Shown here piece by piece: positions 4,375 to 63,159 of a DNA stretch of 64,000 bases. The notes under the pieces were generated by a model. The model had not been told where the DNA came from, did not search any database, and worked only from the letters and a program-made list of their open reading frames with translations. The stretch is from Minwuia thermotolerans. Its GTDB lineage: Bacteria; Pseudomonadota; Alphaproteobacteria; Minwuiales; Minwuiaceae. Position 1 is the first letter of the stretch; each line of letters begins with the position of its first letter. The translations under genes and the position numbers were made by a program. The DNA lies in NCBI RefSeq assembly GCF_002924445.1, contig NZ_PIGG01000081.1, forward strand, positions 1-64,000. Direction: 5' to 3'.

Positions 4375-5505
4375 ATGACACAGCGGATTCACGATTATCT
4401 GGAGCGCACGGCCCATGAGGCGCCGTGCCTGGTGATGGATCTGGAGCGGGTGCGCGACAACTATCAGGCGTTCGCGCACGCCATGCCGGACACGCGGGTG
4501 TTCTACGCCATCAAGGCGAACCCGGCGCCGGCGATCCTGGAGCTGCTGGCCGAACTGAGCAGCTGCTTCGATGCGGCCTCGGTGGCCGAGATCCGCATGG
4601 CCCTGGCCGCCGGCGCGACGCCGGACAGGATCAGCTACTCCAACACCATCAAGCGCGAGCGCGACATCGCCACGGCCTTCGATCTGGGGGTGCGGCAGTT
4701 CGCCTTCGACTGCGACGCCGAGCTGGAGAAGATCGCCCGCGTGGCGCCGGGCAGCCGCGTGGTCTGCCGCCTGCTCTGCGACGGCGAGGGCGCCGACTGG
4801 CCCCTGTCGAAGAAGTTCGGCTGCGCGCCGGCCATGGCCGGCCGGCTGATGCGCCGCGCCCACGAGCTGGGTCTCGAGGCCCATGGCCTGGCCTTCCACG
4901 TCGGCTCCCAGCAGCCCAATCCGGGCATGTGGGACGGTGCGCTGGCGACCTGCGCGGACCTGTTCCGCCAGCTCGGCGAGCAGGGCATCGAGATGAAGAT
5001 GGTCAACCTGGGCGGGGGCTTCCCCGCCCGCTATCTTCGCGACGTGCCCCAGGTGGAGATGTACGGCCAGGCGATCACGGGCTCGCTGAAGCGCCACTTC
5101 GGCAACCGGATCCCGCAGACCATCATCGAGCCGGGCCGCGGCCTGGTCGGCGACGCCGGCGTCATCCGCTCCGAGATCGTGCTGATCTCGAAGAAGGACG
5201 ACGACGATCCGGTGCGCTGGGTCTATCTCGACATCGGCAAGTTCGGCGGTCTGGCCGAGACCATCGACGAGGCCATCCGCTATCCGATCCGCACCGACCA
5301 TGACGGTGAGGAACTGGCGCCGGTGGTGCTGGCGGGGCCGACCTGCGACTCGGTCGACGTGATGTACGAAAAGGAGCCGTACCTGCTGCCGGTCTCGATC
5401 GAGATCGGCGAGACGGTGACGATCGAATCGACCGGCGCCTACACGGCGACCTACGCCTCCAACGGCTTCAACGGCTTCGACCCGCTGAGGTGCGTCTGCA
5501 TCTGA
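4375..5505 (+). CDS. Ornithine/lysine-type PLP-dependent decarboxylase (fold III)
   Basis: Forms putrescine from ornithine (possibly cadaverine from lysine). 376 residues from the ATG at 4375, which follows a GGTTCGGGGG ribosome-binding region. An in-frame upstream ATG at 4297 gives a non-family leader. The PLP lysine is Lys47 in YAIKANP. Also seen are HVGSQ (175-179), GGGFP (213-217), the phosphate-binding EPGRG (252-256) and the active-site GPTCDSVD with Cys324 and Asp325. Third gene of the operon after a 98-base gap, supplying putrescine to SpeE. Substrate choice between ornithine and lysine is not settled by sequence. Confidence 0.92.
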   Translation: MTQRIHDYLERTAHEAPCLVMDLERVRDNYQAFAHAMPDTRVFYAIKANPAPAILELLAELSSCFDAASVAEIRMALAAGATPDRISYSNTIKRERDIATAFDLGVRQFAFDCDAELEKIARVAPGSRVVCRLLCDGEGADWPLSKKFGCAPAMAGRLMRRAHELGLEAHGLAFHVGSQQPNPGMWDGALATCADLFRQLGEQGIEMKMVNLGGGFPARYLRDVPQVEMYGQAITGSLKRHFGNRIPQTIIEPGRGLVGDAGVIRSEIVLISKKDDDDPVRWVYLDIGKFGGLAETIDEAIRYPIRTDHDGEELAPVVLAGPTCDSVDVMYEKEPYLLPVSIEIGETVTIESTGAYTATYASNGFNGFDPLRCVCI

Positions 5506-21348: not shown

Positions 21349-21425
21349 GCGCCCTTAGCTCAGCTGGATAGAGCACGAGCCTTCTAAGCTTGGGGTCGCA
21401 GGTTCGAGTCCTGCAGGGCGCACCA
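21349..21425 (+). tRNA. tRNA-Arg (anticodon TCT)
   Basis: GCGCCCT...AGGGCGC-A-CCA with encoded CCA. The anticodon arm is CGAGC-CTTCTAA-GCTTG, giving TCT at 34-36; the T arm has GGTTCGAGTCC. 77 nt. The AT-rich insert starts shortly after its 3' end. Confidence 0.97.
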
Positions 21426-21770
21426 TTTCTATTTTTTGCCCACGTGATCCCCCCAAACCCTTATTGGAAGCGCAAAAGCGGCGGTTCGAACTTTCCAAGT
21501 TCAGCAACCGTCAGATCGGCACGCAAGTGCGTCTGTTAAGTGCGCCTGGAGACTATTCGCCACGCCGAAGGCGCTGGTTTCTGGCGGACCTTGCCGTTTG
21601 CCACACCGGTTCAAAGATCACGAATGATGTTTGCTCTCCCGCCGTCCGGCGCAGAGACGTTTGGATGCCTTGCGTGTGCGAAGGGCAAAATCCATAGTTC
21701 AATAGGTATTGATTCTACCATCTACAGCTTATAGTATTAGAATTCAGGATTTCCTCAAAGGGCGAGATTC
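21426..21770 (+). other. 345-base gap between tRNA-Arg(TCT) and the AT-rich insert; no supported gene
   Basis: The first half is of mixed composition and holds only short open frames without a ribosome-binding site (for example a 64-codon frame at 21540-21734). A T-run follows the tRNA closely (21430-21438 region). From about 21690 the sequence turns markedly AT-rich, leading into the OLD gene. No integrase remnant was recognised. Confidence 0.6.
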
Positions 21771-23789
21771 ATGAAAATCAAACAAATTAAAATCCTGAAT
21801 TTTCGATCTATAAAAGATCAGGTAATAAACTGTGGTGACCAGACCATTTTTATCGGCGCAAATGGTGTTGGCAAGTCTACTGTTCTAAAAGCGCTTCAGG
21901 CATTTTTCGAAATTAGTTTTCGTCCGGCTGTAGAGGATTTTTTTGCACACAATACAGAGTGGCCGATAGAAATTACCATCGTATTTAATAATTTTAGTGA
22001 AGACGAAGCGGAGGATTTTAAATCTAGAATTTATAATGATGAAATGGTAGTCACAAGAGTATTCGGCGGTGATCAAAGCAATAACGGAAACTATTATGGG
22101 ATGATGAAAGGAAATCCTGCATTTCAATCGATAAGAAATGCTGCGAATGCGACAGAAGCGAAGGCGAAATACACTGAAATCCAGGGATCTGGTGTTGATT
22201 TGCCAAAATGGACTAAGCAAGGGGATGTAGAGGAGCATTTAACATTTTGGGAAGCGGGTCATCCAGATGATTGCGAATTTATCAGGGACGGGGGTCAATT
22301 TTTTGGCTTTAAAAGTGTAGGGGGCGGGAAGCTTCAAAAGGCGACAAATTTCATACTTATTGAAGCAGTCCGTGACGTCTCTGAAGACGCGAACGATCAA
22401 AAATCCTCCGCTATCGGTCAATTGATGGATTTGATCGTTCGCTCTGCGATGGCGCAAAACGAGAAGATCGCAGCCTACCAAGACGAAGTCAATCGGCAAT
22501 ATTCTGCATTAACGAGTCCAGAAAATTTTCCTCAACTTGGTTCGCTGCAAACTGCGCTTACGACCTCGCTGCGCACTTATTATCAGGGTGTTGGCGTTAT
22601 TTTGGATTGGAGAGAAGGCGCGGGAATTAATCTGCCCCCGCCACAAGCAGAAATTAAGTTTGAAGAAGAAAAATTTCAATTTCCTGTAGCCAAAGCCGGA
22701 AATGGTATCCAGCGCGCATTTATAATTTCTCTCTTACACCAATTGCTGGTCGTTAAATCGAATAGCGACGACGGTTCAAAAAATAGCGAGAATGGGGCAG
22801 ATTCCGGTGAGGGCATTGAGGAAAAGAATTTTATGGAAAATCTTCCATCTGTAATCTTGGCAATTGAGGAGCCTGAGCTTTATCAGCATCCAACAAAACA
22901 GTGGCATTTTGCTCAGGTTTTGAAAAAATTGTCAACCAAAGGTTTTCAGGAAATCTTTGGTGATGTTCAGGTATTATTCTGCACACATTCTCCGAGTTTC
23001 GTAGATCTTTCTGAATTTCACAACACACGTATCGTTGCTAAAGTAGGTGGTGAGGGCCTTCCTGCGAAAGAGTCGATATTCAGAGAGGCGTCTCTGCAAG
23101 ATGTTTCGTATGCGCTGACGCATGCATGGGATATACCGGAAGAAAATTGTACGGATAAGAGTACAAAGGCCCGATTGCATATTTTTGGAACCGAGTTGTC
23201 AGAAGGTTTTTTCGCCGACGGGGTTATATTGGTAGAGGGTGCAACCGATAAAGCGGCGTTCGACACAATTGGCAAACGGATAGGCATCAATTTCGCGGAA
23301 AGAAATATTTCGGTTCTGCCCGTTAATGAAAAAAATAACTTGGATAAGCCATTTATGGTTTTTAAATCGTTAGATATTCCAGTGTATCCAATTTGGGATT
23401 CGGACGGAAATTGTGCAGAAGGAGATAGAGGAAAGGCAATAAAGGCCAATAAGGGTTTGCAGAAAATGCTTGGCGTACCTGATGGGGAAGTCGCTGAATT
23501 TCCTGAGGGCGTGCACGAAAAATATGCTTGTTTCGCGAATGAAATCAGCGAACAGTTAAAAAATGATTTTGGTCAAGAACAATTTTTGGAAGCTTATAAT
23601 GAGGCAATGGATGAATTTTCACTGACGGCAAAGCAAGCTCGTAAGAATCCATATGTCACGACTGCCATTATAACAAAGTTGTACGATCAAGGGCGAACAG
23701 CGGGGATGTTAGAGGCGATAATTCAAGCTGCCATAAATCACATCGAGAATGGGACGCCAACGTCGGCAGCTACCGTCGCTGCCGAGTGA
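21771..23789 (+). CDS. OLD-family ATP-dependent nuclease (AAA/ABC ATPase plus Toprim)
   Basis: 672-residue predicted ATP-dependent endonuclease, a type used in anti-phage defence. The N-terminal ABC-type ATPase begins IKILNFRSIKD with Walker A GANGVGKST (29-37), a signature-like AGNGIQRAFIISLL (309-322), Walker B VILAIEEPELYQHP (361-374) and the switch histidine THSP (405-408). The C-terminal Toprim has ILVEGATDKAAF (Glu489) and the DxD in IWDSDGN (543-545). No UvrD-like helicase (GajB), reverse transcriptase or other partner gene lies beside it, so it looks like a class 1, stand-alone OLD. Base composition is far more AT-rich than all neighbours, which points to horizontal transfer beside tRNA-Arg(TCT). 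Confidence 0.88.
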   Translation: MKIKQIKILNFRSIKDQVINCGDQTIFIGANGVGKSTVLKALQAFFEISFRPAVEDFFAHNTEWPIEITIVFNNFSEDEAEDFKSRIYNDEMVVTRVFGGDQSNNGNYYGMMKGNPAFQSIRNAANATEAKAKYTEIQGSGVDLPKWTKQGDVEEHLTFWEAGHPDDCEFIRDGGQFFGFKSVGGGKLQKATNFILIEAVRDVSEDANDQKSSAIGQLMDLIVRSAMAQNEKIAAYQDEVNRQYSALTSPENFPQLGSLQTALTTSLRTYYQGVGVILDWREGAGINLPPPQAEIKFEEEKFQFPVAKAGNGIQRAFIISLLHQLLVVKSNSDDGSKNSENGADSGEGIEEKNFMENLPSVILAIEEPELYQHPTKQWHFAQVLKKLSTKGFQEIFGDVQVLFCTHSPSFVDLSEFHNTRIVAKVGGEGLPAKESIFREASLQDVSYALTHAWDIPEENCTDKSTKARLHIFGTELSEGFFADGVILVEGATDKAAFDTIGKRIGINFAERNISVLPVNEKNNLDKPFMVFKSLDIPVYPIWDSDGNCAEGDRGKAIKANKGLQKMLGVPDGEVAEFPEGVHEKYACFANEISEQLKNDFGQEQFLEAYNEAMDEFSLTAKQARKNPYVTTAIITKLYDQGRTAGMLEAIIQAAINHIENGTPTSAATVAAE

Positions 23790-52840: not shown

Positions 52841-53872
52841 ATGAACACTGCCGACACAGCCCAGCCGCCGGATGTCCTCGTCATTGCCGAGGCCGGTGTC
52901 AATCACAATGGCGACCCGGAACTGGCTCTGGAACTGGTGCGCGCGGCCGCCCGCGCCGGCGCCGACGCGGTCAAGTTCCAGACCTTCAATCCGGATGCGC
53001 TGGTAGCCGCCGACGCCGCCACCGCAGCCTACCAGAAGCGGGCGACGGGGATCGACGATCAGCGCGAGATGCTGCGCCGTCTCGCCCTGCCGGCGGCGGC
53101 GCTCGCCGCGCTCTACGATTGCTGCGGCGAACTCGGGATCGAATTCCTGTCGACACCGTTCGACGCCGGATCGGCCGAGACTCTGGCCGAGCTGGGCGTG
53201 GACCGTTTCAAGATCGGCTCCGGCGATGTGACCAACCTGCCGCTGCTGCGCCAGGTGGCGGCCTATGGACGGCCCGTGATCCTGTCGACGGGCATGGCCG
53301 ATCTCGCCGAGATCGACGAGGCCGTCGCGGCGCTGGCGGCCGTCCGGGACCGGCTGACCATTCTCCATTGCGTCTCCGCCTATCCGACCCCGGTCGAACA
53401 GGCCAACCTGCGAGCGATCGCGACCCTGCGGGAGCGTTATGGCGGGGCGGTGGGCTATTCCGATCACACGCTGGGTGCCGCAGCGGCACTGGCGGCGGTG
53501 GCGCTCGGTGCGGTGGCGATCGAAAAACACCTCACCCTGGACCGGACCATGGCGGGGCCGGATCACGCCGCCTCCCTGGAGCCGGACGACTTCGCGGCGA
53601 TGGTGGCCGGCATCCGCGAGGTCGCGCGGGCGCTGGGCAGCGGCGAGAAGATACCGCAGCCCGACGAGCTGGAGACCCGCGCCGTTGCCCGGCGGGGCCT
53701 GAAACTGAAACGCGACCTGCCGGCCGGTCACGTGCTGACGTCCGGTGACATCGCCGTGCTGCGTCCGGAGACGGGGCTGCATCCCCGGCACCTGGACGAA
53801 CTGGCGGGCCGGCGGCTGAAGGCGGCCGGTCGCGCGGGCGCGCCGATCGAATGGAACGACATTCAACCATGA
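52841..53872 (+). CDS. neuB: NeuB-family nonulosonic acid synthase
   Basis: 343-residue synthase that condenses phosphoenolpyruvate with an N-acetylated hexosamine to give a sialic-acid-like nine-carbon sugar. The TIM-barrel shows IAEAGVNHNGDPELALELV, AVKFQTFNPDAL, FKIGSGDVTNLPLL, STGMADLAEIDEA, YPTPVEQANL, VGYSDHTLG and VAIEKHLTLDR. The C-terminal SAF (antifreeze-like) domain covers about 285-343. It cannot be decided whether the product is neuraminic, legionaminic or another acid. Its stop overlaps neuC. Confidence 0.93.
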   Translation: MNTADTAQPPDVLVIAEAGVNHNGDPELALELVRAAARAGADAVKFQTFNPDALVAADAATAAYQKRATGIDDQREMLRRLALPAAALAALYDCCGELGIEFLSTPFDAGSAETLAELGVDRFKIGSGDVTNLPLLRQVAAYGRPVILSTGMADLAEIDEAVAALAAVRDRLTILHCVSAYPTPVEQANLRAIATLRERYGGAVGYSDHTLGAAAALAAVALGAVAIEKHLTLDRTMAGPDHAASLEPDDFAAMVAGIREVARALGSGEKIPQPDELETRAVARRGLKLKRDLPAGHVLTSGDIAVLRPETGLHPRHLDELAGRRLKAAGRAGAPIEWNDIQP

Positions 53873-55023
53873 CCCGGCGCGTGGTCTACGTCACCGGTAC
53901 GCGGGCCGATTTCGGACTGATGCGGCGGACGCTGGCCGAGATCGAAGGCCGCGCCGGCCTGGATCTCTCGCTGGTGGTGACCGGCATGCATCTCTCGCCC
54001 GGTCATGGCCGCACCGTGAGCGAGATCGAGGCGAGCGGATTCACCATCCGCGACCTGGTGCCGGCGGAGCACGCCGACGACGGGGAAACGGACGATGCCG
54101 GGGCCATGAGTGCGGCCATCGGGCGGCTGGTGGTCGCGCTGTCCCGATCCTTCGCCGCCGAACGCCCGGACATGGTGCTGCTGCTGGGCGACCGCGGCGA
54201 GATGCTGGCCGGCGCCATCGCTGCCCTGCACGCGGGCGCCGCCGGCGTGCACATACATGGCGGGGAGCGGTCGGGGACCGTCGACGAGCCGGTGCGTCAC
54301 GCGATTTCCAAGCTTTGTCACCTCCATCTCGCCGCGACCGAGGATGCCGCCGAACGGCTGCGGCGCCTGGGCGAGGACGCCTGGCGCATCCGGGTGGTGG
54401 GCGCGCCGGGGCTGGACGACATCGGCGCACGCGGCGGCCGCGACCGCGCGGCGCTCTGCGCCGAGGCCGGGCTGGATCCGGCGCGGCCGGTGGCCGTGGT
54501 GCTGTTTCATCCTGTCGTTCAGGACGCCGCCGCCGGCGGCCAGCAGATGACGGCGGTGCTCGCGGCTGTGGCTGCCGAGGGCTTGCAAATGCTGTTGCTG
54601 GCCCCGAATTCGGACGCCGGCGGCGTCGCCGTGCGCCGTGCGGCAGACCGCTTCGCGGAAGTATCGCCGGTGGCGCTGCGCCGGGAGACGCACCTGTCGC
54701 GCGCTGCCTATCTCGACTGGCTGGCGGCGGCCGATCTGCTGATCGGGAACTCCTCCAGCGGCGTCATCGAATCGGCCAGCCTCGGCATCCCCTGCGTCAA
54801 TGTCGGCGACCGCCAGAATGCACGCCTACGCAACGCCAACGTGTTCGACGTTCCTGACTACAGGCCGGCGTCTCTGGCGGCAGGAATACGGCAGGCGCTG
54901 GCGGCAGGGCGCGGCGAATACGCCAATCTCTGGGGTGACGGACGGACCGCACCGCGCATCGCCGACTTCCTGGAGAACGCGGACCTGACGCCGGATGTCT
55001 TCCGCAAGCTCAACAGCTACTGA
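53869..55023 (+). CDS. neuC: NeuC-family UDP-GlcNAc 2-epimerase (hydrolysing)
   Basis: 384-residue enzyme that hydrolyses and epimerises a UDP-N-acetylhexosamine, giving the ManNAc-type substrate for NeuB. It starts TRRVVYVTGTRADFGLMR, with VLLLGDRGEMLAGAIAALHA, HIHGGERSGTVDEPVRHAI and LIGNSSSGVIESASLGIPCVN. The ATG at 53869 overlaps the neuB stop. The C-terminal end (ANLWGDGRTAPRIADFLE...) is duplicated at 58567-58692. The stop lies within the end of the convergent flippase gene (7-base overlap). Confidence 0.93.
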   Translation: MTRRVVYVTGTRADFGLMRRTLAEIEGRAGLDLSLVVTGMHLSPGHGRTVSEIEASGFTIRDLVPAEHADDGETDDAGAMSAAIGRLVVALSRSFAAERPDMVLLLGDRGEMLAGAIAALHAGAAGVHIHGGERSGTVDEPVRHAISKLCHLHLAATEDAAERLRRLGEDAWRIRVVGAPGLDDIGARGGRDRAALCAEAGLDPARPVAVVLFHPVVQDAAAGGQQMTAVLAAVAAEGLQMLLLAPNSDAGGVAVRRAADRFAEVSPVALRRETHLSRAAYLDWLAAADLLIGNSSSGVIESASLGIPCVNVGDRQNARLRNANVFDVPDYRPASLAAGIRQALAAGRGEYANLWGDGRTAPRIADFLENADLTPDVFRKLNSY

Positions 55024-56225
55024 CGGCGCGGCAAAAGGGTCCTGACCGCCGCCCGCGCCTCGCGGTTCACCGCCAGCGCCGCGCAGAGACCAGCCATCCC
55101 GCCGGCAGCGATGGCGATCGCCGGCAGCCAGGCGTGGCCGGGGGCCACCCGTTCGAGGATCAGACCCGGCGCGGCTGTCGCCACGCCCGAGAGGATAACC
55201 GCCAGCCAAAGTTCGGGGCGGATGAGACGTTCGCCAAGGCGGACTGCCTTGCCGGCAGGAGCTCGGAGCAGCACGGACATCGAAACCAGGCCACCACCCG
55301 CCGCCGTGAGCAGCACAGCTTCCAGCGGCAAGCCCAGTGCCACGATCGCCAGCGCGCCGCCGACGAACGCTGCAAATCCGCATATTTCGGCGATCATGGG
55401 GGCGCTGGTGTCGCCCATCGTATTGAGGACACGCCTCAGGAAAATATTGAGCCCCATCGGCAGCAGGCTGATGCTGTAGATTGCCGTATAGAGACTGATG
55501 GCGCGGAGTCCCGCATCGCCGATCTCGCCCCAGCCGAACGCCAGTTCCACAAGCCAGCGGGCATGCACGATCAGCACGGCCGCGGACATGGCGCTCAGCA
55601 CCAGGGTCCAGAACTGCCCCTGTCCTGCCATCCGGCGCAGACCGGCGATGTCGCCTTCCTGGCCCTCGCGCGGGGCGAGACCGGCGAGGCGTGGCAGCAA
55701 TACGGTGGTCAGGGTCATGATGGCGACGCCCAGGGGCAGCAGTACCAGCTTGGTGGCGAAATTGACCGAAGCGAGTGCGCCGACCCCGAACAGCGTGGCA
55801 ATCGCCCGGAGCGCGAAAGGGTAGAAGAAGACCACCGCCTCCGCGGCTGCGGTGCGGCCGAAATGCGCCAGCAGAATTCGGTCGACCAGCCAGGGGCGGA
55901 GTACGAAGCCACCTGCCGCGCCACGGCCGATCGCGAGCACCTGGACCAGCCAGCGAATCAGGGCGCCGGCCAGGATCGCGCCGGCCAGCCACAGCAGTGT
56001 GTCGGCATCGGCCGGAATCAGGAGCGCGAAGATCAGCACCAGATTGATGATGGCGGTACCGATGGTGGCGATGAAGAACCGGTTCTGCGCCTGCAGGAAG
56101 GCGATCGTCGCGCCGGTCATGGCGGCCACTGGCGCGGACAGCAAGACCGATACTCGGCGCGTTTCTGGATCTCTGAGGCGAACGCACTGGCGATTCCGCG
56201 GCGACCCCGCTAACAGAGGCCTCAA
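55017..56225 (-). pseudogene. 5'-truncated MurJ-type lipid flippase copy
   Basis: About 400 codons that align along their whole length with the C-terminal three quarters of the full copy at 58686-60200; for example FFYPFALRAIATLFGVGALA is identical in both. The N-terminal roughly 130 residues of MurJ, including its first membrane helices, are missing. The usable similarity starts near VLLSAPVAAMTGATIAFLQ (about 56100-56160). The remaining reading frame is open and still has many membrane helices, so decay is recent or the product is retained, but a flippase lacking the first helices is unlikely to work. Confidence 0.75.
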
Positions 56226-56248
56226 TTGCGACGATCAATCCTTGGAGA

Positions 56249-57004
56249 ATGTCGGTGAAGACCGAGTGAAATTACAGCGACCTGGCCGACGCCTATCTCA
56301 AGCGGCCCGACTACGCCGACCCGGCGATCGACGCCATGCTGCGGATCGCAGGCGTGCCGGCCGGGTCGCGGGTCTGCGATGTAGGGGCGGGCGTCGCGCA
56401 CCTGACGCTGAAGCTCGCGGAGCGCGGGTTCGAGGTCGACGCGGTGGAGCCCAACGACGCCATGCGCGCCAACGGCGTCAGGCGTACAGAAGCCCTGCCG
56501 AACGTCCGCTGGTTCGAAGGCACCGGCGAAGCCACGGGGATGGCCGACGGCGTCTATGCGCTGGTCACGTTCGGAAGCTCCTTCAATGTCTGCGACCGAC
56601 CCAGGGCTCTGAAGGAGACCGCGCGGATCCTGTCGCCGAGGGGCTGGTTCGCCTGCATGTGGAACCATCGCGAACTCGACGACCCGATCCAGTGCCGTAT
56701 CGAGGAGATCATCCGCGACGACATCCCGGGCTATGGCTACGGCACCCGCCGCGAGGATCAGACCGCGGTAATCGCGGAAAGCGGTCTGTTCGAAGATGCG
56801 GTGACCGTGTCGGGGCGGGTCGTTCATGCGCAGACCAAGGCCGACTGCGTCGAGGCCTGGCGGTCGCACGCCACGCTGGAGCGGCAGGCGGGCGAGCGTT
56901 TCGGCGCCATCGTCGACAACATCTCCGGCTATCTGGACGGTCTGCCCGGCGATTCCATCCAGGTCCCGTACCGGACGAACATCTGGATCGCCCGGCTGCG
57001 TTAG
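56249..57004 (+). CDS. Class I SAM-dependent methyltransferase with in-frame TGA at codon 7 (possible pseudogene)
   Basis: Methyltransferase with AdoMet loop CDVGAGVAHLTLKLAERG, VDAVEPNDAMRANG, then FEGTGEATG and VTFGSSFNVCDRP. The family N-terminus should read MSVKTE-W-NYSDLADAYLKRP; here the seventh codon is TGA (56267-56269) where TGG (Trp) is expected, one base away. The rest is intact to 57004. Either this is a nonsense mutation or sequencing error, or translation restarts at the ATG at 56336 with loss of 29 residues. The gene sits at the left edge of the inserted segment of this locus. Confidence 0.65.
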
Positions 57005-57025
57005 GCAAGCCGGCGTCCGCACGCT

Positions 57026-57559
57026 TCAGCGTCGGTCGAGCCGTTCCAGAACCGTTTCAAGCGTCGCTTCGACGGATCGCCCGGGGTTCCAGGGGACATG
57101 CATGTCTGGCGCGTCAGGATAGTCGACCGCCACGTCGAGTCCGGAGACGCTGCTGATCTCGCCTTTGTCGAAACGGCTGTAGATGTCCTTCGGATCGCGC
57201 CGTCGTAATTCGTCCAGAGGCACGTCGAGAAAGATCTCGAAATAGTCGCCCAAATTCGCCCGGTTCCAGGCATGCACCTCTCCGAAGAGGGAGATCGTCG
57301 CGATCACCACGTCGATTCCCTGGCTTGTGATCAGCTGACAGAGGCGCGCATAGCGCAGCGCCAGCGCCAGCCGTGATTCGCGCGTGTGGCTCGGCGCCGT
57401 CGTCGCGTCCGGACCGAGCACTGCGCGCAGTTCATCGCCGTCGAGCAGCAGCACCGGTTGTCCCGCGCCACGCAACCGGTCGGCCAGCGCGCGGGCCAAC
57501 GTCGACTTGCCTGCGCCCGAAAGCCCGGTGATCCAGATCGTTCGCCCCTGCCGTGTCAC
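57026..57559 (-). CDS. cysC: Adenylyl-sulfate (APS) kinase family protein
   Basis: 177-residue kinase that phosphorylates APS to PAPS, the sulfate donor. Walker A is TGLSGAGKST (11-20), then LDGDELRAVLG, SLFGEVHAWNRANLGDYFEIFLDVPL and RRRDPKDIYSRFDKGEI. The GTG at 57559 gives the family start MTRQGRTIWITG and overlaps the sulfotransferase-like gene stop. It lacks the CysN/CysD neighbours of assimilatory sulfation, so a role in supplying PAPS for glycan sulfation by the adjacent gene is likely but inferred. Confidence 0.85.
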   Translation of the reverse strand: MTRQGRTIWITGLSGAGKSTLARALADRLRGAGQPVLLLDGDELRAVLGPDATTAPSHTRESRLALALRYARLCQLITSQGIDVVIATISLFGEVHAWNRANLGDYFEIFLDVPLDELRRRDPKDIYSRFDKGEISSVSGLDVAVDYPDAPDMHVPWNPGRSVEATLETVLERLDRR

Positions 57560-58518
57560 GCCGCCTCTCCCTTCGTCGCTTCGACAGCGAGATCCAGGCG
57601 CAGATGGGCGAGGGATCTGCGCCGCGAGCGCCCGAGCGCCAGAAGTTCCCGCAGGACCAGAAGCTGTTCCACCAGCCCGAACCGCCGCGCGAGACGGCGC
57701 ACGCCCCGGTCGTGGGCGATCACCTTGCCCTCGAAGGGCTCGATCCGGGTCGCGGCAATCCACAGGAAGCCGGCGAGGCCGCATCTGGGCGCATCGGCTG
57801 GGTCGGGATATCCAGTGGCGACACGGATCGCGCGCGTGAACCATTCGGCGAAACGGTATTCCGCGCTGCTCAATCCGTCTTCCCGGCCGATCGAGCCGGG
57901 ATATAGCAGGTGGGCGCGCCGGCTCTCGAAGGTGGGAATCGGCCGGCCGTCCGCGCTGTTGCCCAGCCAGTCGAAGCCGCAGACCGTCGACCGCCGCAGG
58001 CAGGGTTCGTCGGCAGTCCCGAGCCAGGCGGACAGGCGGGCGAGCATCCGGTCGGGGTCGCCGTGCATGGCGTTGAGGTCGACCAGCCGCAGGTTGTCCT
58101 CACGGGGCAGCATGCCGGCAACTGTTTCGATGTTGCGCCAGCATGTCACCGACCAGCCGCGGACATTGCGGCTGAAATTGCGGAAGGATCCGAGGCCCGA
58201 GCGCGATTCCAGGGTCTTGAAACTCAGCGCGCTCTCGATCGGGTGCCGGCAAGTGGCCAGCAACTTCGTGTCGGGGAAGTCGCGCAGCATCGCCGGGGCG
58301 TCGGCGGTGATGCGGCGGTTGTTGTGATGCTGGAAGACGACATTCCGGATGCGGCGCGGATCCTGGCCGCGCGCCGCCGCCCAGGCGATGGCGAGAGCGG
58401 TCACGAGCTTGCGGCCCTGCGAACAGGGCCGGTCCTGCAGTGCGGCCATTGCCTGCCGGAAGGTGCTCTCGAAGTTCGCGCGGCGGGCCTGGAACCAGCT
58501 TTCGAGCCGCTTCTGCAT
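57556..58518 (-). CDS. Sulfotransferase-like protein, probably 5'-truncated
   Basis: About 320 codons from the ATG at 58518. Segments such as LLATCRHPIESALSFKTLE, LRLVDLNAMHGDP and ARLSAWLGT resemble PAPS-dependent sulfotransferases (3'-phosphate-binding RxxxxxxS-like region). The expected N-terminal 5'-phosphosulfate loop (a P-loop-like PRSGTT segment) is absent: the frame runs upstream into the duplicated neuC tail at about 58567. It is probably cut by that junction. It overlaps cysC by 4 bases, which supports a PAPS-using role. Assignment is moderate. Confidence 0.6.
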   Translation of the reverse strand: MQKRLESWFQARRANFESTFRQAMAALQDRPCSQGRKLVTALAIAWAAARGQDPRRIRNVVFQHHNNRRITADAPAMLRDFPDTKLLATCRHPIESALSFKTLESRSGLGSFRNFSRNVRGWSVTCWRNIETVAGMLPREDNLRLVDLNAMHGDPDRMLARLSAWLGTADEPCLRRSTVCGFDWLGNSADGRPIPTFESRRAHLLYPGSIGREDGLSSAEYRFAEWFTRAIRVATGYPDPADAPRCGLAGFLWIAATRIEPFEGKVIAHDRGVRRLARRFGLVEQLLVLRELLALGRSRRRSLAHLRLDLAVEATKGEAA

Positions 58519-58566
58519 GGCCGGGTCGCCGGCGGCGAAGCCGGGTACGCCGTTATGGAAACTGCT

Positions 58567-58692
58567 GTTGGCGGCAGGCGGGGCGACCACCCGAATCTCT
58601 GGGGCGACGGGCAGACCGCGCCGCGGATCGCCGACGTCCTGGAGAACGTGGCCCTGACACCGACCGTCTTCCGCAAGCTCAACAGTTACTGA
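58567..58692 (+). pseudogene. neuC 3'-end remnant (about 40 codons)
   Basis: The plus-strand frame ends NLWGDGQTAPRIADVLEN...FRKLNSY, nearly the same as the NeuC C-terminus at 54902-55023, including the stop position relative to the convergent flippase gene. Nothing of NeuC remains upstream. Nucleotide identity is high but not perfect, so it is a diverged copy. Confidence 0.8.
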
Positions 58693-60200
58693 CGGCGCTG
58701 CAAAAGGGCCCTGACCGCCGCCCGCGCCTCCCGGTTCATCGCCAGCGCCGCGCCCAACCCGGCGATTCCTCCGATGGCGATGGCGATCGCGGGCAGCCAG
58801 TTGTGGCCGGGGGCCATCCGATCCAAGACCAGGCCCGGCGCCGCCGTCGCCAGCGCCGACAGCACGACGGCAGCCCAGAGACCGGGGCGACGGAATTCCC
58901 GGACGAGGGACACGCCGCACCGCGACATGGAGGCGAACAGCATGGCGGTGGAAACGAAGCTACCACCAGCAGCGCTGAGCAGTATGGCCTCCAGCGGTCC
59001 GTCGGCGGCCAAGACGGCGAGCGCCACCGCTATGAAGGTGGCGAAGCCAATGATCTCCGCCTTCAAAGGAGTTCGCGTGTCGCCCAGCGCGTTGAGGGCG
59101 CGGCGCAGGAAGACGTTCAGTCCCATCGGCAGCAGGCTGAGGCTGAAGACGGCAGTGAAGTTGGCGATGTCGGCGAGACCATCAGGGTCGATCTCACCCC
59201 AGCCGAAGGCGAGATCCACCAGCCAGGCGCCGTGGACAACCAGCACGGCGATCGCCATCGCGCTCAGCGCAAGGATCCAGAATTGGCCGTGAACCGCCAG
59301 CCGCCTGAAGGGGCGGAGATCGCCAGCGTTCCTTTCGTGCGGGGCGAGCCCCGCGAACTGCGGTAGCAGGATGGTCGTCAGGGACATGACAACGACGCCC
59401 AGCGGCAGTTGTACCAGCTTGGTAGCGTAGTTCACCGAGGCTAGGGCGCCGACGCCGAAGAGCGTGGCGATTGCTCTTAAGGCGAAGGGATAGAAAAAAA
59501 CGATAGCTTCTGTCGACGCGGTCCGAACAAAGGCGCTGATCAGCCGCACGTCCACTAGCCAAGGCCGGAATCCCATGTGCCTGATGCTGTCGCGTCCGGC
59601 AACAGCCTGCAGCATCAACCATCGCCCGGCGGTCCCCAATAGGATCGCGACAGCCAGATAGTCGAGGACCATTCCTGACGGCGCCACGAGCATCGCCACA
59701 ACGAGGGTAGCATTAATGATTGCTGCGCCCATCGAGGCAAAGAAGAACCGGTCTTGTGCTTGCAAGAACGCGACACCTGCGCCAGCCATTGCGGCCAGCG
59801 GGGCCGAGAGCAATGCGAGGGGAACCAGCGCGATAGCCAGTTCCCGCGAAACTGGGTCGAAGCCTGGCGCCAGCATATCAATCAGAAAGGCCCGCTTCAG
59901 GAGCAGCAACGCCACCAATGCGCCAACGGTGACAAGGATCGCGACACTGGCCTGGAACATCAACCGTGCGGCCTGGGTCGGGGTCTGACGATAACGGATG
60001 ACGAGGATCGCCGTGAAACCGCCCGCGCCAAGCATGTTCACTAGGAGATCCGGAATGCTGACTAGAAAAACGGCGACATCGGCAGCACGGTTGACACCCA
60101 GCGTGCCGGCGATCGTCGCCTCCCGGGCGAAGCCGAGTAGTCGGCCGACAAGGAGTGCGCAAGTGATTGCCAGTCCGGATTTAAGAATCGACGAGAGCAT
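58686..60200 (-). CDS. MurJ-type polyisoprenoid-lipid flippase (MVF family)
   Basis: 504-residue multi-spanning inner-membrane protein, full length for the MurJ/MVF family. It begins MLSSILKSGLAITCALLVGR with the RLLGFAREATIAGTLG motif of MurJ helix 1 and the VSIPDLLVNMLGAGGFTAI region. About 13-14 membrane helices. Near-identical stretches occur in the truncated copy at 55017. In this sugar locus it probably flips a lipid-linked glycan; murein lipid II is possible but the essential murJ is usually elsewhere. Stop overlaps the neuC remnant as in the first copy. Confidence 0.85.
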   Translation of the reverse strand: MLSSILKSGLAITCALLVGRLLGFAREATIAGTLGVNRAADVAVFLVSIPDLLVNMLGAGGFTAILVIRYRQTPTQAARLMFQASVAILVTVGALVALLLLKRAFLIDMLAPGFDPVSRELAIALVPLALLSAPLAAMAGAGVAFLQAQDRFFFASMGAAIINATLVVAMLVAPSGMVLDYLAVAILLGTAGRWLMLQAVAGRDSIRHMGFRPWLVDVRLISAFVRTASTEAIVFFYPFALRAIATLFGVGALASVNYATKLVQLPLGVVVMSLTTILLPQFAGLAPHERNAGDLRPFRRLAVHGQFWILALSAMAIAVLVVHGAWLVDLAFGWGEIDPDGLADIANFTAVFSLSLLPMGLNVFLRRALNALGDTRTPLKAEIIGFATFIAVALAVLAADGPLEAILLSAAGGSFVSTAMLFASMSRCGVSLVREFRRPGLWAAVVLSALATAAPGLVLDRMAPGHNWLPAIAIAIGGIAGLGAALAMNREARAAVRALLQRRQ

Positions 60201-60389: not shown

Positions 60390-61730
60390 ATGCCGCAGTA
60401 TCCTGCCCGTGTCCCGGTCGATTCGGCCCGATATGCCCCCGACCGCAATGATCCGGAGATCTTTTACGGATTGCCGCGCGAGGTGCGGTTTTGCCGGAAG
60501 AGCCTGATTTCCAACCAGCGGCCCAACTCGACCGTAGAATTCAAACACACACGCGATTCGCGCAAGAGCACGATTCATTTCGACGAAAATGGCGTTTCCG
60601 ACGCGTGGCACGTTGCGCGGATGAAGGACCAGATCGACTGGACGGCCCGCCGAGACGAACTGGAGGCCTTGCTGTCGAAATACCGCCGGAATGACGGTGG
60701 CTATGATGTGCTAGTGCCGGGTTCCGGCGGCAAGGACAGTTTTTACGCCGCACATGTCCTGAAATATGAATTCGGGATGCACCCGCTGACGGTGACCTGG
60801 GCACCGCACATCTACACTGACTGGGGATGGAAGAACCAGCAGGCTTGGATCCATGCTGGTTTTGACAACTATCTAATGACGCCGAACGGTCGGGTCCATC
60901 GCCTGCTCACCCGTCTCGCGGTCGAGAATATCCTGCACCCGTTCCAGCCCTTCATCCTGGGCCAAAAGCAGCTTGCGCCAAAGATGGCGGCGTTGTTCAA
61001 CATCCCGCTGGTGATGTTCGGCGAGAACGAAGCCGAGTACGGCAATCCCAAAGCGGATGCTGATCAGGCCCGGCGCGATTGGGATTACTTTTCCGCGTCC
61101 GACGAGAGCGAAGTTCATCTGGGTGGTACGTCGATTCGCGATCTGGTTGACAAGTTCGGACTGCACCGGGCTGATCTCCAGCCCTACATGCCGGCGAATC
61201 CCGAAGACCTGAGACAGGTTGGCGTCGACGTGCACTATCTGGGCTATTATCTGCCCTGGCACCCGCAAGGCGCGTACTACTATGCGGTCGAACACGGTGG
61301 CTTCCAAGCGTCGCCCGAGCGCACTGCCGGTACCTATTCAAAGTACAATTCGATCGACGACAAGATCGACGACTTCCATTACTACACGACCTACATTAAG
61401 TTCGGTATTGGTCGGGCAATGTATGATGCGAGTCAGGAGATTCGCTCAGGCGAGATCGATTTTGAGGAGGCCAAAGCGCTGGTGCGGCGCTATGATGGGG
61501 AATTCCCGGAACGCTTTGCCGACGAGATTTTTGAGTATATGTCGCTGCCACCCGAGGAATTCCCGGTAGCCAGCAAGCAGTTCGAGCAGCCGATCATGGA
61601 TCGCGCCTATTTCGACAACCTCTGCGACCGTTTCCGCTCGCCGCATCTTTGGATGTTGAATGAGGGGCAGTGGGAACTGCGCCACAAGGCGTGGGAGGAG
61701 GCCGAAGAACTGGTGGAGACAGCTTCTTGA
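60390..61730 (+). CDS. N-acetyl sugar amidotransferase (WbpG/PseA-like)
   Basis: 446-residue ATP-dependent enzyme that forms an acetamidino group on N-acetylated sugars, using ammonia from a HisH/HisF-like pair. The PP-loop is LVPGSGGKDSFYAAH (108-122), followed by TVTWAPHIYTDWG. The N-terminal region is family-like (EVRFCRKSLISNQRP and FDENGVSDAWHVARMKDQIDW), but the zinc cysteines usual there are mostly replaced (Cys35 kept; Ser38, Ser70, Trp73). The ATG at 60390 is chosen; the frame is open to 60204. The stop overlaps the HisF-like start. Confidence 0.85.
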   Translation: MPQYPARVPVDSARYAPDRNDPEIFYGLPREVRFCRKSLISNQRPNSTVEFKHTRDSRKSTIHFDENGVSDAWHVARMKDQIDWTARRDELEALLSKYRRNDGGYDVLVPGSGGKDSFYAAHVLKYEFGMHPLTVTWAPHIYTDWGWKNQQAWIHAGFDNYLMTPNGRVHRLLTRLAVENILHPFQPFILGQKQLAPKMAALFNIPLVMFGENEAEYGNPKADADQARRDWDYFSASDESEVHLGGTSIRDLVDKFGLHRADLQPYMPANPEDLRQVGVDVHYLGYYLPWHPQGAYYYAVEHGGFQASPERTAGTYSKYNSIDDKIDDFHYYTTYIKFGIGRAMYDASQEIRSGEIDFEEAKALVRRYDGEFPERFADEIFEYMSLPPEEFPVASKQFEQPIMDRAYFDNLCDRFRSPHLWMLNEGQWELRHKAWEEAEELVETAS

Positions 61731-62503
61731 GCCAGCGGCGTACACGATTGATCGCCCGCCTCGACGTCAAGGGCAAGAACCTGATCAAGGGCGTTCAACT
61801 TGAGGGTCTTCGTGTTGTCGGCGATCCGCAGACATACGCAACCGGTTATTACGAGACAGGCATTGATGAATTGATATATATGGATGTTGTCGCCAGTCTC
61901 TATCAGCGTAACAATCTGGCCGATGTCGTCTTGCGCGCCACCGAGAACATCTTCGTTCCTCTGACTGTCGGCGGTGGTATTCGTTCGCCGGAAAATGTCG
62001 AAACCTTATTGCGGGCTGGTGCGGACAAAATAGCGATCAACACCGCCGCCGTGCGGCGCCCGGAACTGATCACGGAGCTATCCCGGATGTTCGGGTCACA
62101 GTGCATTGTGCTTTCCATAGAAGCCAAACGCCAAGGCGAAGCTTGGGAGGCGTATACCGACAATGGCCGCGAACGCACTGGTATTGACGCCGTACAATGG
62201 GCACGACGGGGCGAGGAACTGGGCGCTGGCGAGATTCTCGTGACTTCGGTCGACATGGAGGGGCGTCGCAGGGGCTTCGACGTTGAACTCGTCTGCGAGA
62301 TCACCCGGCAGGTCGATATCCCGGTGATCGCCAGCGGAGGCATGGGCGAAGCTGCCCATCTGCTGGACGTCGTGGAGCGGGGGGGGGCCGATGCCGTGGC
62401 CATGGCTCACGTGCTTCACCATGAGGTTGTCAAACTACCCGAGTTGCGAAATGCACTGGTTGGGGCAGGACTCAGCATTCGCAACGTTGACTGGTGTCGT
62501 TGA
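61727..62503 (+). CDS. HisF-like glycosyl-amidation protein (WbuZ/WbpI-hisF2 type)
   Basis: 258-residue (beta/alpha)8 barrel paralog of imidazole-glycerol-phosphate synthase HisF that helps deliver ammonia to the amidotransferase. It starts at TTG 61727, overlapping the previous stop (TTGA), giving MSQRRTRLIARLDVKGKNLI with the first catalytic-type Asp. VPLTVGGGIRSPENVETLL and VIASGGMGEAAHL are the phosphate-binding loops. The second catalytic position reads LSIEAKRQ where HisF has IDAKR. Not a histidine-pathway gene by context. Confidence 0.85.
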   Translation: MSQRRTRLIARLDVKGKNLIKGVQLEGLRVVGDPQTYATGYYETGIDELIYMDVVASLYQRNNLADVVLRATENIFVPLTVGGGIRSPENVETLLRAGADKIAINTAAVRRPELITELSRMFGSQCIVLSIEAKRQGEAWEAYTDNGRERTGIDAVQWARRGEELGAGEILVTSVDMEGRRRGFDVELVCEITRQVDIPVIASGGMGEAAHLLDVVERGGADAVAMAHVLHHEVVKLPELRNALVGAGLSIRNVDWCR

Positions 62504-62505
62504 GC

Positions 62506-63159
62506 ATGGCCGGGCCCTCGGTCTCGATACTCGACTACGGCGTCGGCAACCTCCGCAGCGTCGCACGCGCATTTGAAGTCTGCGGTGCGGCGCCAATCCT
62601 CGCAAGTTCGCCGAAGGAAGCCGCGCGCGCGGAGCGTCTCGTCATTCCGGGGGTTGGCGCTTTCGGGTCTTGTGTTGCCGCTATTCGGAAACGGGGTTTC
62701 CATGAAACGATCGAGGAAGTCGTCCGTCTGCGGCAGCGCCCGGTAATGGGCATCTGCGTCGGTATGCAGATGCTCTTGGATGAGAGCGAGGAATTCGGCC
62801 CTGTGACGGGTTTCGGCTATCTGCCGGGCGGCGTGGTCGGCTTGGCGAAGGAACTGGGCGAAACACGCCGCAAAGTGCCGCACGTTGGATGGGCAGCACT
62901 GATACCGCCAGAGGAAAATGTGGAGCGCTGGAATGGCACACCGCTCGAAGGGGTGCGCCCGGGGGATGAGGTCTATTTCGTGCACAGCTTTCACGCTGCG
63001 CCCGCGAACCGACAGCACTATCTCGCTGGCGCTGACTACCTTGGCGACAGCGTCTGTGCCGCCGTCCACCACGAAAACCTGGTTGGTTTCCAGTTTCACC
63101 CGGAAAAGAGCGGTCCCGTGGGGCTGGCTATCCTGCGGCGCTTTCTGGAAATGGGCTAG
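62506..63159 (+). CDS. hisH: HisH-like glutamine amidotransferase
   Basis: 217-residue class I glutaminase that supplies ammonia to the HisF-like partner. The triad is Cys84 in GICVGMQMLLDE, with His198 and Glu200 in GFQFHPEKSG. VGNLRSVARAFE and VIPGVGAFGS are typical. Starts at the ATG at 62506, three bases after the HisF stop; GTG 62494 and TTG 62500 are alternatives. In sugar-modification loci this trio replaces a histidine role; the symbol marks the family, not the pathway. Confidence 0.88.
   Translation: MAGPSVSILDYGVGNLRSVARAFEVCGAAPILASSPKEAARAERLVIPGVGAFGSCVAAIRKRGFHETIEEVVRLRQRPVMGICVGMQMLLDESEEFGPVTGFGYLPGGVVGLAKELGETRRKVPHVGWAALIPPEENVERWNGTPLEGVRPGDEVYFVHSFHAAPANRQHYLAGADYLGDSVCAAVHHENLVGFQFHPEKSGPVGLAILRRFLEMG

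Follow-up and report, generated by a model that had tools for sequence, protein, structure and literature searches.

A candidate island-replacement scar at a variable nonulosonate/acetamidino-sugar locus of Minwuia thermotolerans

The window, the whole stretch of DNA analysed here, comprises the first 64,000 nucleotides of contig NZ_PIGG01000081.1 (C81) of Minwuia thermotolerans; all coordinates are those of the contig, and genomes of the genus are designated by G numbers. Near its right end, the 3' end of neuC and a convergent murJ-like gene are present twice, and each copy is truncated on the side that faces the other. The features of the locus are as follows.

52841..53872, plus strand: neuB, N-acetylneuraminate synthase family, conserved left flank (TIGR03569 402 bits, above cut-off; 97% aa identity to G006)
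53869..55023, plus strand: full neuC, UDP-GlcNAc 2-epimerase of the hydrolysing type, conserved left flank (TIGR03568 342 bits; 96% aa and 96% nt identity to G006)
55017..56147, minus strand: left murJ-like copy, a 5'-truncated pseudogene without residues 1-128 of the right copy (PF03023 from profile position 105; alignments)
55160..55190: crossover point, where the variable island begins on its left side (identity to G006 drops from ~95% to ~50-65%; BLAST block ends at 55183)
56148..56254: junction J1, ~105 bp separating the murJ remnant from the methyltransferase (unmatched in the loci compared)
56255..57001, plus strand: class I methyltransferase relic, full length, codon 5 TGA (79% aa identity to G001/G003; TGG in the G003 homologue)
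57029..57559, minus strand: APS kinase, apparently intact, with a GTG start codon that overlaps the stop codon of the sulfotransferase (PF01583 1.8e-29 for the enclosing ORF, 57029-57844; 92% aa identity to G006)
57556..58561, minus strand: sulfotransferase remnant, N-terminal ~91 residues gone (N-terminal part of the Sulfotransfer_3 profile missing)
58561..58569: junction J4, sulfotransferase remnant to neuC remnant, a non-homologous joint (alignments)
58569..58692, plus strand: neuC remnant, last 40 codons and stop (81% nt identity to the left neuC and to G006)
58686..60200, minus strand: right murJ-like copy, full length, 504 aa, MOP-type flippase paralogue (PF03023 123 bits; TIGR01695 139 bits; 72-73% aa identity to G006)
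60390..61730, plus strand: N-acetyl sugar amidotransferase, WbuX family, island (TIGR03573 341 bits, above cut-off)
61703..62503, plus strand: HisF/WbuZ-like amidation partner, island (profile and congener comparison)
62494..63159, plus strand: HisH-like glutaminase, island (profile and congener comparison)

A local alignment of the two copies pairs 54899-56144 with 58569-59813, and a repeat finder returned 54908-55207 and 58577-58876 at 82% over 300 nt, which bears out the original prediction that the neuC and murJ 3' ends occur twice. Identity per 60-base block is 82-93% near neuC (54899-55078), 75-77% to about 55198, and 53-82% beyond. The nucleotide similarity thus extends well past shared protein motifs; near-identity of the copies covers only about 280 bp, and the rest of the alignment reflects distant homology. 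The truncations are also as predicted: on the left neuC is complete and the murJ-like gene lacks its 5' part, whereas on the right the murJ-like gene is whole and only the final 40 codons of neuC are left. Both copies keep the same 7-base convergent overlap (55017-55023 and 58686-58692). By gene coordinates, this overlap is found in G006, G001, G002, and G003 and is absent from G004 and G005; its presence in relatives marks it as an ancestral feature, not one special to the duplication.

The assembly is a draft of 82 contigs with an estimated contamination of 3.56%, and a mixed sample could have allowed two strain versions of the locus to be joined in error. The longest exact match between the copies, however, is only 21 bases, which makes an assembly collapse through a shared k-mer unlikely. 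J1 and J4 lie in unrelated sequence, outside the repeat; collinearity with the complete genome of G006 is kept on both sides, and the relic genes show decay. With these points against it, misassembly is very unlikely.

The comparison set consisted of seven genomes of the genus, including the present one. Each of the six congeners searched carries a single neuC/murJ pair, convergent and intact, and none shows the doubled arrangement; the second copy is therefore peculiar to the present genome. A scan of named organisms yielded nothing closely related (best neuC 53% identity); a murJ-like match was found in only 5 of its 80 loci, in no case adjoining neuC. If neuC'-murJ had been duplicated locally in tandem and the copies had then diverged, gene order, orientation, and the 7-base overlap would be alike in both, as they are. 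The copies, however, differ at up to ~45% of nucleotides, whereas the left neuC differs by only 4% from that of G006, which is another species. The divergence therefore predates the split of this species from G006, and yet G006 has one copy. We rejected tandem duplication because the divergence is too old, and we regard it as the least credible of the explanations considered. The divergence of the copies and the single pair in relatives support the earlier proposal that the diverged copies were brought together by recombination.

The closest relative, G006, is collinear with the contig at 94-96% identity over 28912-55183 and 69246-110000, with small gaps and one larger gap at 76795-79759. The left block ends within the last 55 codons of murJ, and collinearity resumes on the right inside a sugar-transferase gene (94% aa identity to G006). 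Between these points lie ~14 kb of gene content unlike that of G006, and the duplication falls inside this stretch. Its genes here include murJ, a WbuX-family amidotransferase, HisF/WbuZ-like and HisH-like genes, a second NeuB-like gene, a phosphotransferase-like gene, putative glycosyltransferases, and a PseF/NeuA-like cytidylyltransferase. The island amidotransferase is 76-80% identical (aa) to those of G003-G005 and 31% identical to its counterpart at the same place in G006. The amidotransferase/hisF/hisH set as a whole is 58-80% identical to the sets of G003 and G004 (largely G005 too) and 30-41% identical to that of G006, which points to alternative cassettes. The edges, neuB-neuC on the left and a sugar-transferase/lysC block on the right, are conserved and collinear at near species-level identity, while the ~14 kb between them varies among relatives and holds non-orthologous sugar genes at the same place. 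Judged by its predicted genes, the stretch is a variable nonulosonate/acetamidino-sugar island, arranged as a variable surface-sugar locus would be. The fixed flanks and alternative central cassettes support the original prediction of a site of modular glycan gene exchange; that such exchange alters serotype or surface structure is plausible.

Up to about 55183 the left copy and G006 agree at ~95% of positions; beyond it, identity falls to 50-65%. An initial BLAST block of 91-92% had masked this drop, which was revealed by windowed identity, and the view that the left copy is native throughout was rejected. At informative sites, where two of three sequences agree, the counts between 54899 and 55183 were 25 left-with-G006 and 11 right-with-G006; between 55184 and 55700 they were 38 and 117, respectively (Fisher p = 7e-7 for the change). 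This collapse at 55183 supports the original prediction of a crossover, here within the murJ 3' end. Deeper in murJ the preference reverses again (p = 6e-9), and in a maximum chi-square scan the break with most support fell at ~55761 (0/5000 permutations). Breaks at both positions rule out one breakpoint for the whole of murJ and indicate a multi-step mosaic gene. The right murJ and that of G006 have a common stretch of ~82% identity, and the 4-fold site identity of the right copy to G006 steps, weakly, near murJ codon 449, close to the codon at which the left copy changes at 55183 (41/52 versus 58/101, p = 0.012). At 4-fold sites of neuC, the left gene is 90% identical to G006, and so native-like, and the right remnant 67%; the greater divergence of the remnant indicates that the right copy derives from a more distant source within the same clade.

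The score of the right murJ-like protein against TIGR01695 (139 bits) is below the equivalog cut-off of 235.55 bits, and contig C4 encodes a protein that matches MurJ much better (PF03023, 402 bits). Together these results mark the protein as a MurJ-like paralogue belonging to the sugar locus, and it is probably a dedicated flippase.

The segment between the two copies had been described as an insertion carrying a methyltransferase, an APS kinase, and a sulfotransferase fragment. These genes are present, but the segment does not read as a functional insert. A six-gene module (methyltransferase, PPDK-like, glutaminase-like, nucleotidyltransferase, APS kinase, and sulfotransferase) is whole at another locus in G003 and G001, and three of its six genes are left here; the PPDK-like gene is absent from the present genome and from G006. 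The methyltransferase is not cut at its 5' end, a possibility that we considered and rejected, but is full length with a nonsense codon (codon 5, TGA here versus TGG in G003). The 454-aa 'sulfotransferase' ORF called by the program reads antisense into the second copy, and genuine homology stops at ~58561, leaving a gene without its N-terminus. Against G006, the APS kinase gives an NG86 dN of 0.040 and dS of 0.220, a dN/dS of about 0.18; it appears to be intact and is possibly functional. Beside the cytidylyltransferase gene in its own island, G006 has the APS kinase together with the terminal ~57 bp of the methyltransferase and the final bases of the sulfotransferase. The same relic in smaller form in G006 indicates that the segment is no new cargo but an old remnant that islands of the clade already carried. 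No source for the ~105 bp at J1 was found among the loci compared. At the G003-type module site no clean excision scar was readable; G000 and G006 do not have the module, and the two sides of the site lie apart. At that site in G002 (L194, about 4565-4681), only ~117 bp of the methyltransferase are left, which suggests that the module itself may be gained and lost. A partial methyltransferase copy (73% aa identity, residues 1-148) lies beside a transposase-like ORF at 1.895 Mb in G006 (L088 8655-9910).

The original prediction held that the pattern is that of a circular DNA entering by one crossover. In such a scheme a circle bearing neuC-3'/murJ-3' together with the methyltransferase, APS kinase, and truncated sulfotransferase would have recombined within the ~280-bp block, so that the left neuC and right murJ would be resident and the right neuC remnant and left murJ would come from the donor. 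The insert is indeed flanked by two partial copies of one arm, cut reciprocally on the sides toward it, as such an event would classically produce. The identity of the left copy to G006 changes sharply at 55183, the copies are most alike exactly at the proposed crossover block, and work in E. coli shows that linear DNA is able to form a circle and integrate through one crossover (PMC3240628). The circle, however, would give no account of why the island to the right of the insert also differs from G006, and it would already need to have carried a broken murJ and a broken sulfotransferase. The relic fragment in the G006 island also speaks against it, since the module was already in the islands of the clade. 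Among the ORFs of 50-70 kb, no plasmid, phage, integrase, or transposase gene was seen. The reciprocal truncation and the crossover point thus stand, while the circle and its single crossover are possible, though doubtful, rather than established.

We favour instead a linear fragment that left two island versions stacked at this variable locus, a reading to which we give about an even chance. The resident island would have carried one murJ-like gene along with the remnant of the methyltransferase, APS kinase, and sulfotransferase. An incoming linear fragment with a left edge of its own (a neuC end, murJ, amidotransferase, hisF/hisH-like genes, and onward) would have recombined by homology on the right and joined without homology on the left, inside the old sulfotransferase at J4. 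The old murJ, now redundant, could then have lost its 5' part at J1, and the methyltransferase could have acquired its nonsense codon; the working locus would be the right-hand island, served by the left-hand neuB and neuC. A linear island with homology at one end only would produce the same map and would also explain the difference of the right-hand island from G006 and why the left-hand genes have decayed. At J4, a truncated sulfotransferase is joined to a truncated neuC, and on the best reading at least one junction of the stacked islands is non-homologous. The right edge at 69246 lies within a gene that G006 also has, a position that would be compatible with homologous recombination. The right murJ is complete and the left one broken, which we count for the stacked islands. 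Several points count against them: J1 needs an extra deletion, whereas a circle with a short homologous arm would give reciprocal truncation directly; the step near codon 449 of the right copy is what a crossover there would predict; and murJ, with its ~82% stretch in common with G006, is itself a multi-step mosaic. Neither a donor genome nor the pre-insertion state of the species was found among the genomes compared, and so the order of events and the identity of the resident copy are only inferred.

Segments of two distinct island versions adjoin each other here, which is why the left edge is doubled. On the favoured reading, the locus is a scar at which one version was swapped in beside broken remnants of another. 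The type of locus is well known, and the event is ordinary in kind, though few such scars can be read so easily. In Enterobacteriales, both whole sugar loci and single genes are exchanged (PMC7305143), and the present locus resembles the cps, kps, and O-antigen loci in its conserved edge genes and swapped central sugar genes. It differs from them in the doubling and truncation of its left edge, which have left a legible trace, in its combination of neuB/neuC with a WbuX/WbuZ/HisH-like island, and in a host outside Enterobacteriales. In the T6SS effector/immunity arrays of Vibrio, homology-facilitated illegitimate recombination leaves older modules behind (PMC5361080). The likeness to that process, whose mechanism is treated in PMC3240628, lies in one end anchored by homology and the other not, and in an older module staying beside the new one. 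Unlike the Vibrio arrays, the present locus consists of sugar genes, its relic has no evident advantage, most relic genes are broken, and the homologous end is only inferred. Campbell-type integration of a circle likewise leaves two partial, reciprocally truncated arm copies around an insert, but here the copies are strongly diverged outside ~280 bp, the neighbouring island is foreign relative to G006, and no circle, integrase, or plasmid gene was found.

The locus offers a clear map of surface-sugar gene swapping outside the usual model species, with fixed edges, a changeable middle, and relics of an earlier version; in loci of this kind the enclosed genes are best read as fossils rather than new functions. 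It is conceivable, though unlikely, that the convergent neuC/murJ 3' ends are a preferred landing edge for island exchange in the genus. Were this true, incoming islands could pile up next to a single conserved neuB-neuC, and older surface-sugar types could be traced from the fossils left there.

Two further features were noted elsewhere on the contig. The gap in G006 collinearity at C81 76795-79759 (L041 6795-9760) is a ~3-kb stretch missing from that genome, and it holds a putative Trk-type potassium transporter-like ORF, named by eye only. At 21349-23789, directly after tRNA-Arg(tct), lies an islet of low G+C content (0.43-0.55 versus ~0.68) that encodes a 672-aa OLD/GajA/AriA-like ATPase-TOPRIM protein (PADLOC Old 5.9e-58, AriA 5.2e-41), likely a tRNA-linked defence gene.
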